Part shown: positions 25,685-60,398 of the stretch, piece by piece
How positions within the stretch are numbered: the stretch's first letter is position 1
How the letters are laid out: every line of letters starts with the position of its first letter
From: Aliigemmobacter aestuarii
GTDB lineage: Bacteria > Pseudomonadota > Alphaproteobacteria > Rhodobacterales > Rhodobacteraceae
Direction: 5' to 3'
Length of the DNA stretch: 64,000 bases
NCBI RefSeq assembly: GCF_004799285.1
Contig: NZ_SSND01000001.1
Span: 682,001 to 746,000, forward strand
The notes under the pieces: model-generated
What the model saw: only the letters and a program-made list of their open reading frames with translations
Database searches by the model: none
Told to the model about the DNA's origin: nothing
Made by a program: the position numbers and the translations under genes

Positions 25685-25890
25685 CGCATGCGCCGCCTCT
25701 CAGGGGCGATGATCGTCGTCTTGCATCGGGAAGGGACCTGGTCTGAGCCCAGCGTTCAAGCTACAATGGGGAGATGACTGGTTCGCCTTTCTGCGACCCA
25801 CGCATCGAAACAAAACACTGTGACCAACCCAGTCTCCTTTAGCCCACCCGGTGCCCGCCAAACGCACACAAAAAAACTGCGATGACTGCT

Positions 25891-25938
25891 AAGCGCGGCA
25901 AGCGAGAACCCCGCGCTTGCAAGCATTTTGATTTTTTT
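25891..25938 (+). terminator. Candidate terminator next to the island boundary
   Basis: AAGCGCGG (25891-25898) pairs with CCGCGCTT (25911-25918), 8 perfect base pairs, followed seven bases on by a T-rich tract with two T runs up to 25938. On the minus strand a run of T also follows after some bases, so it could act both ways. It sits just left of the first tRNA-Phe-derived repeat. Confidence 0.4.
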
Positions 25939-25994
25939 GATTTAAGTGGTGCCCAGAGCCGGAATCGAACCAGCGACACGCGGATTTTCAATCC
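25937..25994. repeat. Displaced tRNA-Phe 3' end, attachment-site copy (distal)
   Basis: Bases 25947-25994 duplicate the last 48 bases (T arm, acceptor, CCA) of tRNA-Phe on the minus strand, plus 10 bases downstream. After 25994 the match stops abruptly (CTGACA instead of GCTGCT). There is no 5' half, so this is a tRNA fragment, not a gene. The flanking 96 bp to the left are also partly similar to 27109-27204. Confidence 0.85.
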
Positions 25995-26102
25995 CTGACA
26001 TGATAACGCCGCCGCCCAAGTGAAACGTCAAAGGCTGCTCGGCGTGTCAACTCAATCGAATTCCCTCCTACAGCTGCCCCGAGAAGGATCAGCCACGCCC
26101 CC

Positions 26103-26918
26103 TCAGGAACGGATCCCCCCAACATAGAGATTGCGCATCTTCATAGTGATTCCGGAGTCTGGGAACGGCGGAAACGGACTCGGAAATCCAAAGCCGCGGT
26201 AATTCATGCCATGCCCTTTCAAGCTTGGACCTACAGACCACAAGATCGGTTTCTTGAGATCCTGAAGCTCTGGTTTGCATTGCAATTTTGCTTCCGTCCC
26301 GCAGCCAGGAGGGATGACGTTTGGTCCATTAACCGAATAAACTAGTTTTCCGTTGCAGATCACCTGCAGGAACCCATCACTGCCATTTGACCACTTCACC
26401 CGCATAACCACACTGTTCCACTTGCCGAATTGACGTGGCGTAAAACAAGTCTTGTCCTCGAATGTCGCGCCCTTTGAAGAGTCCAGGTACATCTCGTACA
26501 TATGGTTCTTGATCGTGTTCGATCTTTGCCATTCGGCGATCCACAGGCGGCTGCGGTAGTTCACAGACCCCCAACCACGACCATTGTAGCGAAAGCCGGG
26601 AGCAACCCAGATTTCCATCGCATACTCGTAAGAGCGCCCCATCCGCTGCTGATTTCGCGCATTAAGCTGCGAGCGACTATTCCCGTTCAAACAATCACTT
26701 TCACCGCGTCCGTCACCATAAGTCCGCTTCTGGCAATCGCCGCGACGCATTACGAAGGTCACTTCGCCGTTCTTCCATTTCGGAGCCACTCCGGAGTTCT
26801 TGCCAACGTAGAAGCCCGAGGGCGTGTCTGCCCGCGCAACGCCAGCGAAACACTGAACTGCGAGGGTCAAGACCACAAGCGCAGCGAATAATCGACTGGT
26901 GATCCTTGAGTTTGGCAT
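26103..26918 (-). CDS. Secreted polysaccharide-lyase-like protein (heparin lyase I/PL20-type fold)
   Basis: A 271-residue protein with a clear signal peptide (cleavage ARA-DT, residue 31). The mature part has YEYAMEIWVAPGFRYNG, SRLWIAEWQRS, NSVVMRVKWSNGSDGFLQVICNGKLV and the closing MKMRNLYVGGIR, the concanavalin-like beta-sandwich pattern of Polysaccharide lyase proteins. Cysteines form pairs (QKRTYGDGRGESDC, CFTPRQ, CNGKLV, CGTEAKLQC). Codon use and composition are much more AT-rich than the neighbours, as expected for horizontally acquired DNA. It is the only gene of the tRNA-Phe island. Enzyme activity and substrate are not established by sequence alone. Confidence 0.7.
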   Translation of the reverse strand: MPNSRITSRLFAALVVLTLAVQCFAGVARADTPSGFYVGKNSGVAPKWKNGEVTFVMRRGDCQKRTYGDGRGESDCLNGNSRSQLNARNQQRMGRSYEYAMEIWVAPGFRYNGRGWGSVNYRSRLWIAEWQRSNTIKNHMYEMYLDSSKGATFEDKTCFTPRQFGKWNSVVMRVKWSNGSDGFLQVICNGKLVYSVNGPNVIPPGCGTEAKLQCKPELQDLKKPILWSVGPSLKGHGMNYRGFGFPSPFPPFPDSGITMKMRNLYVGGIRS

Positions 26919-27214
26919 CTGACCGGCCTCTTCGACCTCTCAGTTAAAGTCTTGCAAATCTTGTGCGGTGTGACAAGGCGCTGCCATCGACTGTGTCCAA
27001 AACGTTGTGGGCAAGAACTGTGTTCGAGTTACTGTGGGGCAAACGCTGTGTCGCACTTGCTGTGGCCAACACATTGATTCCAAACACAGTGTTCGACACA
27101 GCTTTTTCAGCCAGCCCAGCGCCAGTTCAACGCACGCAAAAACTGTGCGATGAGTGTGTAACGCACGAAGTTAAAACTGTGCCACAGCTAATGCACTGAT
27201 CTTGTTGATTTAAG
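26919..27214. other. Non-coding part of the island, upstream of the lyase gene
   Basis: About 300 bases containing the promoter side of the lyase gene and the CTGTG array listed separately. A 78-codon frame (26963-27199, plus strand) is open but its product has no recognised features, and it lies in the repeat region, so I do not call it. Confidence 0.5.
26991..27064. repeat. Six-copy degenerate 14-bp repeat beginning CTGTG
   Basis: CTGTG (TTGTG in the second copy) starts at 26991, 27005, 27018, 27032, 27046 and 27060, a period of 14 (one copy 13). The remainder of each unit is loosely TCCAAAACG or GGCAAGAA. Inverted CACAG occurrences follow at 27085 and 27096, and CTGTG recurs at 27143 and 27177. 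It lies about 70-150 bp upstream of the lyase gene start. Arrays like this can be regulator-binding arrays or iterons. I do not recognise the family. Confidence 0.65.
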
Positions 27215-27262
27215 TGGTGCCCAGAGCCGGAATCGAACCAGCGACACGCGGATTTTCAATCC
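27205..27262. repeat. Attachment-site copy at the tRNA-Phe 3' end (proximal)
   Basis: The 58-bp identical partner of 25937-25994. Bases 27215-27262 are the 3' 48 bases of the intact tRNA-Phe gene and the other 10 bases lie downstream of it. The left flank to 27109 is weakly similar to that of the other copy at the same offset. Confidence 0.85.
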
Positions 27263-27290
27263 GCTGCTCTACCAACTGAGCTATCTGGGC
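27215..27290 (-). tRNA. tRNA-Phe (anticodon GAA)
   Basis: A 76-base gene with encoded CCA. The acceptor stem GCCCAGA pairs with TCTGGGC, the D arm has AGTTGGTAGAG, the anticodon loop TTGAAAA gives GAA, and the T arm has GGTTCGATTCC. It lies about 145 bases downstream of yacG on the same strand, as is usual in Rhodobacterales, and its 3' end is the integration site for the adjacent small island. Confidence 0.95.
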
Positions 27291-27436
27291 ACCGTTTGCA
27301 ACTCGCGTCGCGTTGGTGGGGCGGTATTATGCGACGGCGCGGGGGCTGTCCAGAGGGTTCGGGCAAATTTTTCCGCCCCTTGCCCTGCGCGCGGGGAACG
27401 GCGCGGGACCGGATGGGCCGCGCGGCATCGGCGGGT

Positions 27437-57740: not shown

Positions 57741-60398
57741 GTGGCCCGTTTCCGCCTGAGTGCCGGCCCCGACCGTCTGATCGGAGGGGCCAATATCGCC
57801 GACAGGTTCATCCTGTCCACGCCCGGGCACCTGACCGGGGCAGATACGATCAAGGGCGGCGCGGGGGCTGGCGACCAGCTTGTCATCCGGGCGGGCATGA
57901 CGCTGGGGGCAGCGGCCTTCCAGAAGGTGGCGGGGATCGAGGCGATCCTGATCAACACCGCCTCGCCGGTCGCGCTGACACTCGTGAACCGGCTCACGGC
58001 CTTTTCTGCCCTGCCGGTTTTCACCGTCACCGGCGGGGGCGGCGGCGATACGATCAATGCGGGCGCGATCACCAATCGCGCGCTTCTTATGAACGGGCGC
58101 GGCGGCAATGACATCCTGACCGGCGGCGCGCGGGCCGATGTGATCCGCCCCGGTTCGGGCAACGACCGCGCCAGCGGTGGCGCGGGCGATGACCGGTTCG
58201 AAATCACCGCCGCCGATCTGACCTCGGCCGACCTGCTGGATGGCGGCATCGGCTCCGCCGACACGCTGCGCGTGCTGGCGGGCGGGGTGCTGGCGCCCAC
58301 CGCCCTCACAGGCCTGCGCGGGATCGAACGGATCGACCTGACGGCGCTGGGGTCTGCGAACCTTAGCCTGCTTCTGCCCGGCACGCTTGCGCCCACGTCG
58401 GGCGCGCAGGTCACGCTGATCGGCACGGCGGGCGCGAATTCCTTTGCTGCGGCGCTTGCCTCGATTTCGGTGAACCTGATCGGCGGGCTGGGCAATGACA
58501 CGCTGACCGGCGGGGCGGCGAATGACCGGCTGGACGGGGGCGACGGCAACGACCGGCTGAACGGGCGCGGGGGAAATGACCAGCTGTTCGGCGGCAGCGG
58601 GAACGACACGCTGTCGGGCGGTGCAGCGAACGATCTGATAGCCATCGGAAGCGGCACCGACGTGGCCGACGGTGGAGAGGGCAACGATACCTATCTTGTC
58701 GCGGCGGGCGATCTTTCGGCCGATGACCTGATCGCCGACGAATCCGGCACGGGCGACGTTCTGCGCGGCACGGGAACGGCGGCCATCGTCATTTCGGCGG
58801 CCATCGCCGACCGGATCACCGGGATCGAAAGCATCGTTCTGGGCGCCGGCGCCGACCGGCTGACGCTGACCGACACGCTGATCGCGTCCCATGACGCGGC
58901 GTTCCTGACGGTGGACGGCGGGGCGGGGAACGATTCGATCACGGCGGCGGCGATGACGGTGCTGGCCGGGGGGCGCGGGCTGCTGCTGCGCGGGGGCGAC
59001 GGGATCGACACGCTGATCGGCGGGCTTGGCAACGACACGATCGACGGCGGCACGGGCACCGGCCTTTACGACGGCGGCAGCGGAAACGACCGGTTCCTGA
59101 TCCGCCGGACCGAGATGCTGCTGGCCCCCACGGTGAACGGGGGCGCGGGGAACGAGGACGAAATCGTCTTCAACGGCGGCGGCGCCATCACCGCAGCCCA
59201 TCAGGCGAACGTGACCGGGATCGAACGTTTCGTCCTGTCCGACGAGGGCATGAGCCTTGCCCTGGCGGGGTCGGCGACGGCCGCCACCAATGTTTTCGCC
59301 TTCACCGTCATCGGCGGCACGGGCGATGACCTGATCGACCTGACCGGTTCCACCAAAAGGACGCAAGTGGTTGCCGGCCACGGGGACGATACCGTTCTGG
59401 GCAGCGCGTTCCGCGACACCATCGAGGGCGGGCGTGGCATCGACCGTCTGGAAGGAGGAGGCGAGGCCGACCAGTTCATCTTTGCCGCCGGCGAATTGAC
59501 GGGCGCCGATACGGTGAGCGGCGGGGCGGGCTTTGACAGCCTCGAGATCGGACTTGCTCCGGGGCAGTTCATGGGCCCGACGGCCTTCACGGGGGTATCC
59601 GGCATCGACAGGCTGTGGCTTCAACCGACCGGAGAAGGCGCGACGGTCATCCTTCCGGCGAATCTTTTGCTGCAAAGCGATCTGTCCACGTTGAATGTGA
59701 CCTCGTCAGGATCATTCGGCATCAGGATCGACGCGCGACTGGTCACTGGCGGGGGCATAAGGCTGGACGGCGCCAACGGCGCGGATACGCTTTATGGATC
59801 ATCGGGTTCCGAATCCCTTGTCGGGAATGCGGGCAACGATGACCTGATCGGGGGGCCGGGCGGAGATTCGATCTTTCTTGGCACCGGCGAGACCACCCTC
59901 GACCGCGCGATCTATACCTCGATCACGGACGGCACGATCGACATCAACGGCACGCTCTCTGCGGGCCAACTGGCGATGGCGGACACCGTGAACGGCACCG
60001 AATTCGTCAACAACTTCATCGTCGTGAGCAGGGTGGCCTTCGGCCTGCTCGACGCGACGACCTGGTTCGTCGGAGCCGCCCAGGACATCAGCCTCAATTT
60101 CAGCGCGGCACGGCTTACAGGGGTCAGCATCGCGGGGGATGCTTTCGGGTCGCTTACGGCTGTGCGAAACGCGGTCGGCTCGCGTCTTGCAGACAACGAC
60201 CCGACCGAGAACGAGGGCCTCATCCTCGTGATCACCGGTGCCAGCGCAACCCGGTTCGGCGTCTACTACTTTGAGGATCGCGACCAGAACAGCACGGTGG
60301 ATGCGGCAGACCTCTTGCACCTTCTGGCGATCGGCACCGGCGAAGGACCCACGTTCGGCGGAAACAGCGGCTTCCGCCTGACATCCGACCTGTTCTGA
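57741..60398 (+). CDS. Large RTX-type calcium-binding protein with EF-hand-like end
   Basis: An 885-residue protein, GTG start with AAAGGAG 7 bp upstream, no N-terminal signal peptide. RTX nonapeptides are grouped in several blocks (about 95-145, 245-320, 390-450, 550-580, 680-710) between longer non-repeat parts, a looser pattern than in the gene at 49.4 kb. Near residues 855-866 [12 protein letters not shown] is an EF-hand-like loop. The end [10 protein letters not shown] is an Asp-Leu-x terminus common in T1SS substrates. It is probably secreted. The adhesion or enzyme role is unknown. Confidence 0.88.

Follow-up and report, generated by a model that had tools for sequence, protein, structure and literature searches.

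Tycheposons are cargo elements at the tRNA genes of other hosts that use a tyrosine recombinase, and we know of no array of CTGTG arm sites in them or in other tRNA-targeting cargo elements. In integrons, the ends of attC sites follow the consensus RYYYAAC and GTTRRRY. ICEMlSym-R7A of Mesorhizobium, whose integrase is IntS, has a phe-tRNA gene as its target. Its attP, 283 bp in length, is reported to lie beside the integrase gene and to contain several arm-type motifs of about 10 bp; five arm-type sites are reported, all of which are required for efficient integration (PMC11963761). The general role of arm-binding domains (PMC8138268) is a further basis of comparison for the P' arm reading that we propose below.

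Here we analysed a short periodic array beside a tRNA-Phe gene of Aliigemmobacter aestuarii in a window of 64,000 nucleotides (contig NZ_SSND01000001.1, positions 682,001 to 746,000), to which all coordinates in this text refer. We conclude that the array is likely to be the P' arm in the attachment site of an integrative element that targets tRNA-Phe. Like the attP of ICEMlSym-R7A, the attachment sites of this family carry several putative arm-type motifs of about 10 bp beside an integrase gene. The motif itself differs, being TGKTGGTATC in R7A and of the CTGTG type here; furthermore, the P' arm alone holds five to nine TGTG sites phased at about 13.5 bp, and the window copy has neither an integrase nor a P arm. 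The likeness to tycheposons is that of a cargo element at a tRNA gene with a tyrosine recombinase. Within the limited set of literature searched, we found no description of the array, of the integrase family or of the module that is the subject of later paragraphs.

Results

The first-pass annotation of this region had reported six CTGTG/TTGTG copies, followed by an inverted pair of CACAG and two more CTGTG. All of these were found where they had been placed: YTGTG starts at 26991, 27005, 27018, 27032, 27046 and 27060, with spacings of 14, 13, 14, 14 and 14 bp, inverted CACAG at 27085 and 27097, and additional CTGTG at 27143 and 27177. Extra sites are CACAG at 27183 and TTGTG at 26961. Between 25700 and 27214, up to six YTGTG sites follow one another at steps of 13-15 bp, and the maximum in 2000 dinucleotide-preserving shuffles was two. 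When any 4-mer at a spacing of 8-40 bp (±1) was admitted, the observed chain was again six, a length that was never reached in the shuffles, of which 4 of 2000 gave a chain of five. A three-site pattern with at most one mismatch matched the window twice, compared with 0.01 matches expected, and together the shuffles and the expected pattern counts rule out a chance origin of the array. The background had been described as AT-rich, which does not apply: the GC content here is about 51-54%, low for the genome yet not AT-rich.

Several other explanations were tried and rejected. An open reading frame of 78 aa runs over the array (26963-27199) and has no Pfam match; a coding explanation was discarded because a period of 13/14 bp is no codon period. 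An RNA family was dismissed as well, the only Rfam matches at the gathering threshold being two tRNAs, and so was a general regulatory site, the own genome yielding no further significant copy apart from the decayed arm described below. Elsewhere in the window, a 27-bp tandem repeat of 5.7 copies lies at 58476-58630.

The array is located on the element side of tRNA-Phe(GAA), adjoining the 3' end of the tRNA and the core. The tRNA gene (27215..27290, minus strand; ARAGORN and Rfam tRNA) is the integration target, and comparison of att copies places the core, TTTTCAA, in its anticodon loop (27253-27259, plus strand). Two direct repeats of 66 nt, 97% identical and 1268 bp apart, bound the element: the tRNA-proximal copy (27197..27262, plus strand) comprises the 3' half of tRNA-Phe and the downstream flank, and the distal copy (25929..25994, plus strand) is a truncated tRNA-Phe 3' half at the element's far end. 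Such direct repeats of a tRNA 3' end are the usual footprint of insertion at this position. The inserted element (25995..27214, strand undefined) consists of one cargo gene and the putative P' arm; an integrase gene is absent, and the left end is without CTGTG sites. The cargo gene (26103..26918, minus strand) encodes a polysaccharide lyase of family PF14099 (34.1 bits, cut-off 29.9). We considered whether this lyase is common to the window element and to that of Marimonas lutisalis (genome G110) and rejected the idea: one of two G110 genes matches PF14099, and BLASTP found no real similarity between it and the window gene.

The array extends from 73 bp upstream of the start codon of the lyase gene nearly to the tRNA, forming the outer part of a conserved region of about 230 bp between the tRNA-Phe 3' end and the body of the element. 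Five phased YTGTG sites make up the outer module (26987..27054, plus strand), which is 81% identical to a module of genome G317 that occurs without a core. The rest of the outer block (27055..27110, plus strand) contains CTGTG at 27060, a TTGAT unit at 27074, AGTGT at 27088, which is CTGTG in most relatives, and the CACAG pair at 27085-27101. The core-proximal block (27139..27188, plus strand), with TGTG at 27144, 27155 and 27178 (11 and 23 bp apart), shows the strongest conservation within the region. A decayed, older copy of the P' arm lies beyond the distal att copy, at 25747..25913 (or to 25928) on the plus strand, and is matched by model R1 (see below) with E=1.1e-9. Its CTGTG sites are mostly gone, and its identity of 72%, measured over 241 bp, takes in the near-identical att copy. 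This decayed arm is probably the trace of an earlier related insertion, and at least two related insertions have probably taken place at the locus. The window genome yielded this arm and the decayed one, with no other copy. It has six PF00589 loci and, at the thresholds used, no match to the array-associated integrase family.

Across 15 homologous arms, the TGTG sites of the outer block are mostly spaced by 13 or 14 and by 27 bp, and also by 40/41 bp. While the sites on which the first-pass annotation had based a 14-bp period are real, a period of about 13.5 bp, that is 27-bp units with a half-way site, fits the 15 copies better. In the core-proximal block, spacings of 11 and then 22 or 23 bp were found in 14 of the 15 arms. 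The gap between the two blocks measures 42-44 bp in six arms and 52-54 bp in eight (14 of 15 arms) and therefore shifts in length by about one helical turn; in the window it reads 83 bp because the unit at 27088 is AGTGT, and counted from 27088 it is 55 bp. We also compared 14 truncated att copies. In 12 of them the core is TTTTCAA of the anticodon loop. Six have, on the other side of the core, a P arm whose sites are of like kinds; the remaining eight, the window copy among them, have no P arm. Of the eight armless att ends, five read TTTTCAATCC, and of the six armed ones, four read TTTTCAAGACTTG (25985-26000 in the window, and the compared att copies).

Homologous arms were found in other genomes by several searches. 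Among the matches listed in a DNA search of the own genome and 100 relatives, one relative (G011) had similarity extending beyond the tRNA-Phe 3' end; the array recurs in its flank and is followed, about 1.2 kb downstream, by an open frame of 212 aa that represents the first part of a tyrosine-integrase gene. A search with the CTGTG pattern added G317 and G114, and a second DNA search added G110. The generic CTGTG pattern scan matched 39 of 295 genomes and its reversed-pattern control also matched many; since such a scan mostly finds unrelated tandem repeats, only array-like matches were pursued. The array region was aligned in 13 copies from nine genomes, and R1, a sequence-only model built from 11 arrays, matched 24 of the 295 family genomes, the own genome included (E<=0.01). 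For control, TGTG/CACA sites were counted in the 200 bp beyond the tRNA at 24 of the 30 tRNA loci that the first DNA search had given, one of which was dropped as it had only 7 bases of flank. Counts were 0-4 in 21 of the 23 loci; only the window genome and G011 reached 10-11.

Comparison of the G110 integrase with 84,980 species genomes, using a method sensitive to close relatives only, gave nine loci in seven genomes, with three loci in Salibaculum griseiflavum. At seven of the nine, the array and the tRNA-Phe 3' end lay inside the fetched flank. The fetched flank of L091 (Marimonas arenosa, G335) held arrays only; after extension of the contig, an intact tRNA-Phe with a full array was found about 13.5 kb from the integrase, bringing the count to eight of nine. 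At L097, whose integrase is 81% identical, neither an array nor a tRNA-Phe copy was present in 21 kb, and the genome is without the module. The order tRNA or att copy, array, integrase was observed at L093, L094, L096 and L098 and in G011; the L098 integrase gene ends at the contig end, and the G011 frame is short. In G045, which was outside model training, three of five array matches overlap the starts of its three related integrase genes (identity 60% in two cases and 38% in the third) or lie at most 140 bp from them.

When integrase (E<=1e-40) and array were scored in the 295 family genomes, the integrase was found in 11, and the array was carried by 8 of these 11 compared with 16 of the 284 others (Fisher p=8e-8). 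Removal of the four genomes used in training changed the figures to 6 of 9 and 14 of 282 (p=3.6e-6), and with strong array matches only and the training genomes removed the association was weaker (3 of 9 versus 7 of 282, p=0.002). Sixteen of the 24 array genomes are without an integrase at E<=1e-40, and three of the 11 integrase genomes are without an array at E<=0.01. The cargo genes near homologous arrays differ and stand in either orientation. A check for the same repeat in other tRNA islands had been proposed in the first-pass annotation, and its conservation at constant spacing was indeed observed in homologous islands at tRNA-Phe; this agrees with the protein-binding array inside an island that had been predicted there.

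The closest group of integrases (81-100% identity) is found with tRNA-Phe in eight of nine loci, a relative at 60% identity has its start beside tRNA-Met, and relatives at 37-39% lie beside tRNA-Cys in seven of eight loci. This is an integrase family with changing tRNA targets. The motif test in the tRNA-Met and tRNA-Cys branches was mixed, with CTGTG/CACAG enriched (p<0.03) downstream of tRNA-Cys in only three of seven loci; on account of these three, the motif may follow the integrase and not the tRNA, which is only suggestive. At the loci L104, L106-L109, L111, L112 and L114, where integrase relatives adjoin tRNA-Met (one) or tRNA-Cys (seven), CACAG sites are partly similar.

The family shares with the lambda, Tn916 and P4-like integrases a PF00589 catalytic domain, predicted N-terminal strands and a helix, a tRNA target and repeats adjoining the core. 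Unlike these, the integrase matched neither a Pfam arm-binding family nor an NCBIfam model, and its fold match is weak. A fold of four strands with one long helix is predicted for the N-terminal 68 residues (pLDDT 83). Among 50 second-look matches to this domain, the arm-binding domains 3rmp, 3ju0, 2wcc and 3jtz scored Z 4.1-4.8 and unrelated folds up to 6.2, so the fold is compatible with arm binding and is no proof of it. Foldseek with the N-terminal domain gave no match at E<=0.001, the full-length AF2 model was too poor for use (pLDDT 44), and a sequence search of the PDB with the integrase gave XerA at E 0.28 and one stray match as the only results. A phage origin was considered and rejected, the integrase having no match in 50,697 phage records (E<=1e-20), while viral contigs yielded no confirmed match. 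Six compared loci from four genomes have, close to the integrase, a second tyrosine recombinase of 188-194 aa (L088:9606-10187). In G110 it consists of the catalytic domain only, and DNA homologues lie near the integrase in G335 and at L093, L094, L095 and L096.

The outer ~65 bp of the arm recur without a core between cargo genes, in ten copies from four genomes: G317 has three, G110 one, G335 five, including a diverged one, and Marivita geojedonensis (G336) one. On contigs that hold both, these coreless modules share the orientation of the full arm, and the cargo genes near them are in mixed orientation. Projected on the 228-nt G110 arm, the right ends of the modules, taken as the ends of local alignments, fall at 65, 67 and 68 in G317, at 65 in G110, at 68, 61, 62, 45 and 74 in G335 and at 67 in G336; eight of the ten thus end at positions 61-68, within 8 bp, and the other two at 45 and 74. 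Because the G110 copy and one G317 copy have common cargo, seven of the eight clustered junctions are independent. Three different genes come after a small cysteine-rich gene and its module; in the case of G335, the module is the one with its end at 45. G335 and G336 have in common a methyltransferase unit of 1008 bp that stops at the right module edge, with different DNA beyond, and a 1313-bp ketopantoate-reductase unit common to G110 and G317 (96.4%) starts at the left module edge. The reductase and an acetyltransferase were named by Pfam, the other cargo by reading translations.

From the integrase to tRNA-Phe in G335 (L187 and L188, G335:C31 about 296375-307136), four coreless CTGTG modules are interspersed with unrelated small genes. 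This row resembles a gene-cassette array. As in integron attI/attC arrays, a short recurring site in one orientation separates genes, and the cargo of G335 lies between the target site and the integrase. By sequence and folding, however, the coreless modules are not attC. In an alignment of 17 module copies, read by eye, GTTRRRY/RYYYAAC ends were not seen, the module edge being GTTGCGA or diverging after GTT, and no significant single-strand folding was found in eight strands of four modules (z -1.46 to +1.32). The recombinases of G110 are not of the integron type either: the second recombinase reached 38.9 bits against a cut-off of 265 for TIGR02249, the Phe integrase had no NCBIfam match, and, unlike in integrons, the target is tRNA-Phe.

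Discussion

Homology, position and phasing of the array are direct observations: in other genera a homologous region with conserved site spacing separates tRNA-Phe, or a truncated copy of it, from a tyrosine-integrase gene. For the proteins involved we reason by analogy: it is probably the integrase that binds the array sites. Each CTGTG-type site, about 10 bp long, would be an arm-type site gripped by the small N-terminal domain of the integrase, and the phased sites would wrap the DNA into a complex that places the catalytic domains on the core in the tRNA anticodon loop. This arm complex would set the direction of the reaction, that is whether the element inserts or excises. Some of the arm sites may be held by an excision factor instead, and such a factor perhaps also assembles on the P' arm.

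A different assignment within the same att site, in which the array binds a recombination directionality (excision) factor or a host architectural protein, is possible but on balance unlikely. RdfS and Cox-type factors oligomerise on att DNA (PMC11963761), the palindromic AACACTGTGTT and CTGTGTTCAACACAG found in many array copies would suit a dimer, and two differently spaced blocks suggest two proteins; where a P arm is present, however, like sites stand on both sides of the core, as for integrase arm sites. The proximity of the array to the lyase start codon could also point to an operator or promoter array of that gene, a possibility for which the first-pass annotation had proposed a test, and attachment arms can double as promoters, the attP region of R7A also driving intS (PMC11963761). 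We nevertheless regard this as very unlikely: homologous arrays adjoin unrelated cargo that points either way, no sigma-70-type promoter match was found in 26880-27330, and the array tracks tRNA-Phe and the integrase family. The same annotation had also proposed an iteron-like control site, with a test of the region as an origin. Iteron-type replication origins or plasmid remnants would account for direct repeats in phase, but here the repeats belong to an attachment site at a chromosomal tRNA gene with target repeats, and elsewhere they lie between tRNA-Phe and an integrase gene. The element offers no Rep gene or plasmid context, its only gene being that of the lyase, the related outer module of G317 has no match in 72,556 plasmid records, and the integrase has only distant plasmid relatives (three records, 27-35%) besides lacking the phage-record matches mentioned above. 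We consider an origin exceedingly improbable.

The coreless modules raise a further question, namely whether the outer ~65 bp serve as the junction site for cassettes in a system that resembles integrons and has its anchor at tRNA-Phe, with units of a module plus one or few genes. This is a tentative idea, which we hold to be rather unlikely. Units would be added beside the tRNA-proximal arm, each leaving a coreless module of the same orientation; the second recombinase would be a candidate for the junction reaction, and the window would hold a one-cassette array. A stricter version, according to which the outer module is chiefly a recombination site for cassette junctions and its use as an integrase arm is secondary, appears less probable again. 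Both the common right edge of most coreless modules (8/10) and the fact that homology of cargo units stops at module edges speak for it. On the other hand, once modules exist, cargo could be shuffled between them by ordinary homologous recombination of the host, the modules fold unlike attC, and in the window genome the searches found no copy besides the arm and its decayed counterpart.

Taking the array as a P' arm, the window copy is probably an orphan, one-armed and with a single lyase gene, which is either stranded or dependent on an integrase from outside. Since the own genome yielded no integrase of the family, the element would be mobile only with such an outside integrase, or never, and because it has neither an integrase nor a P arm, its function is read from its relatives.

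What had been an anonymous repeat becomes a recognisable marker of a family of tRNA-Phe integrative elements in Rhodobacteraceae-type Alphaproteobacteria (the family being taken from organism names), related integrases of which adjoin tRNA-Met and tRNA-Cys. With the array as a marker, orphan islands that lack an integrase can be recognised. If the coreless modules are true junctions, they would represent another route, besides integrons, to line up genes at a fixed chromosomal site.
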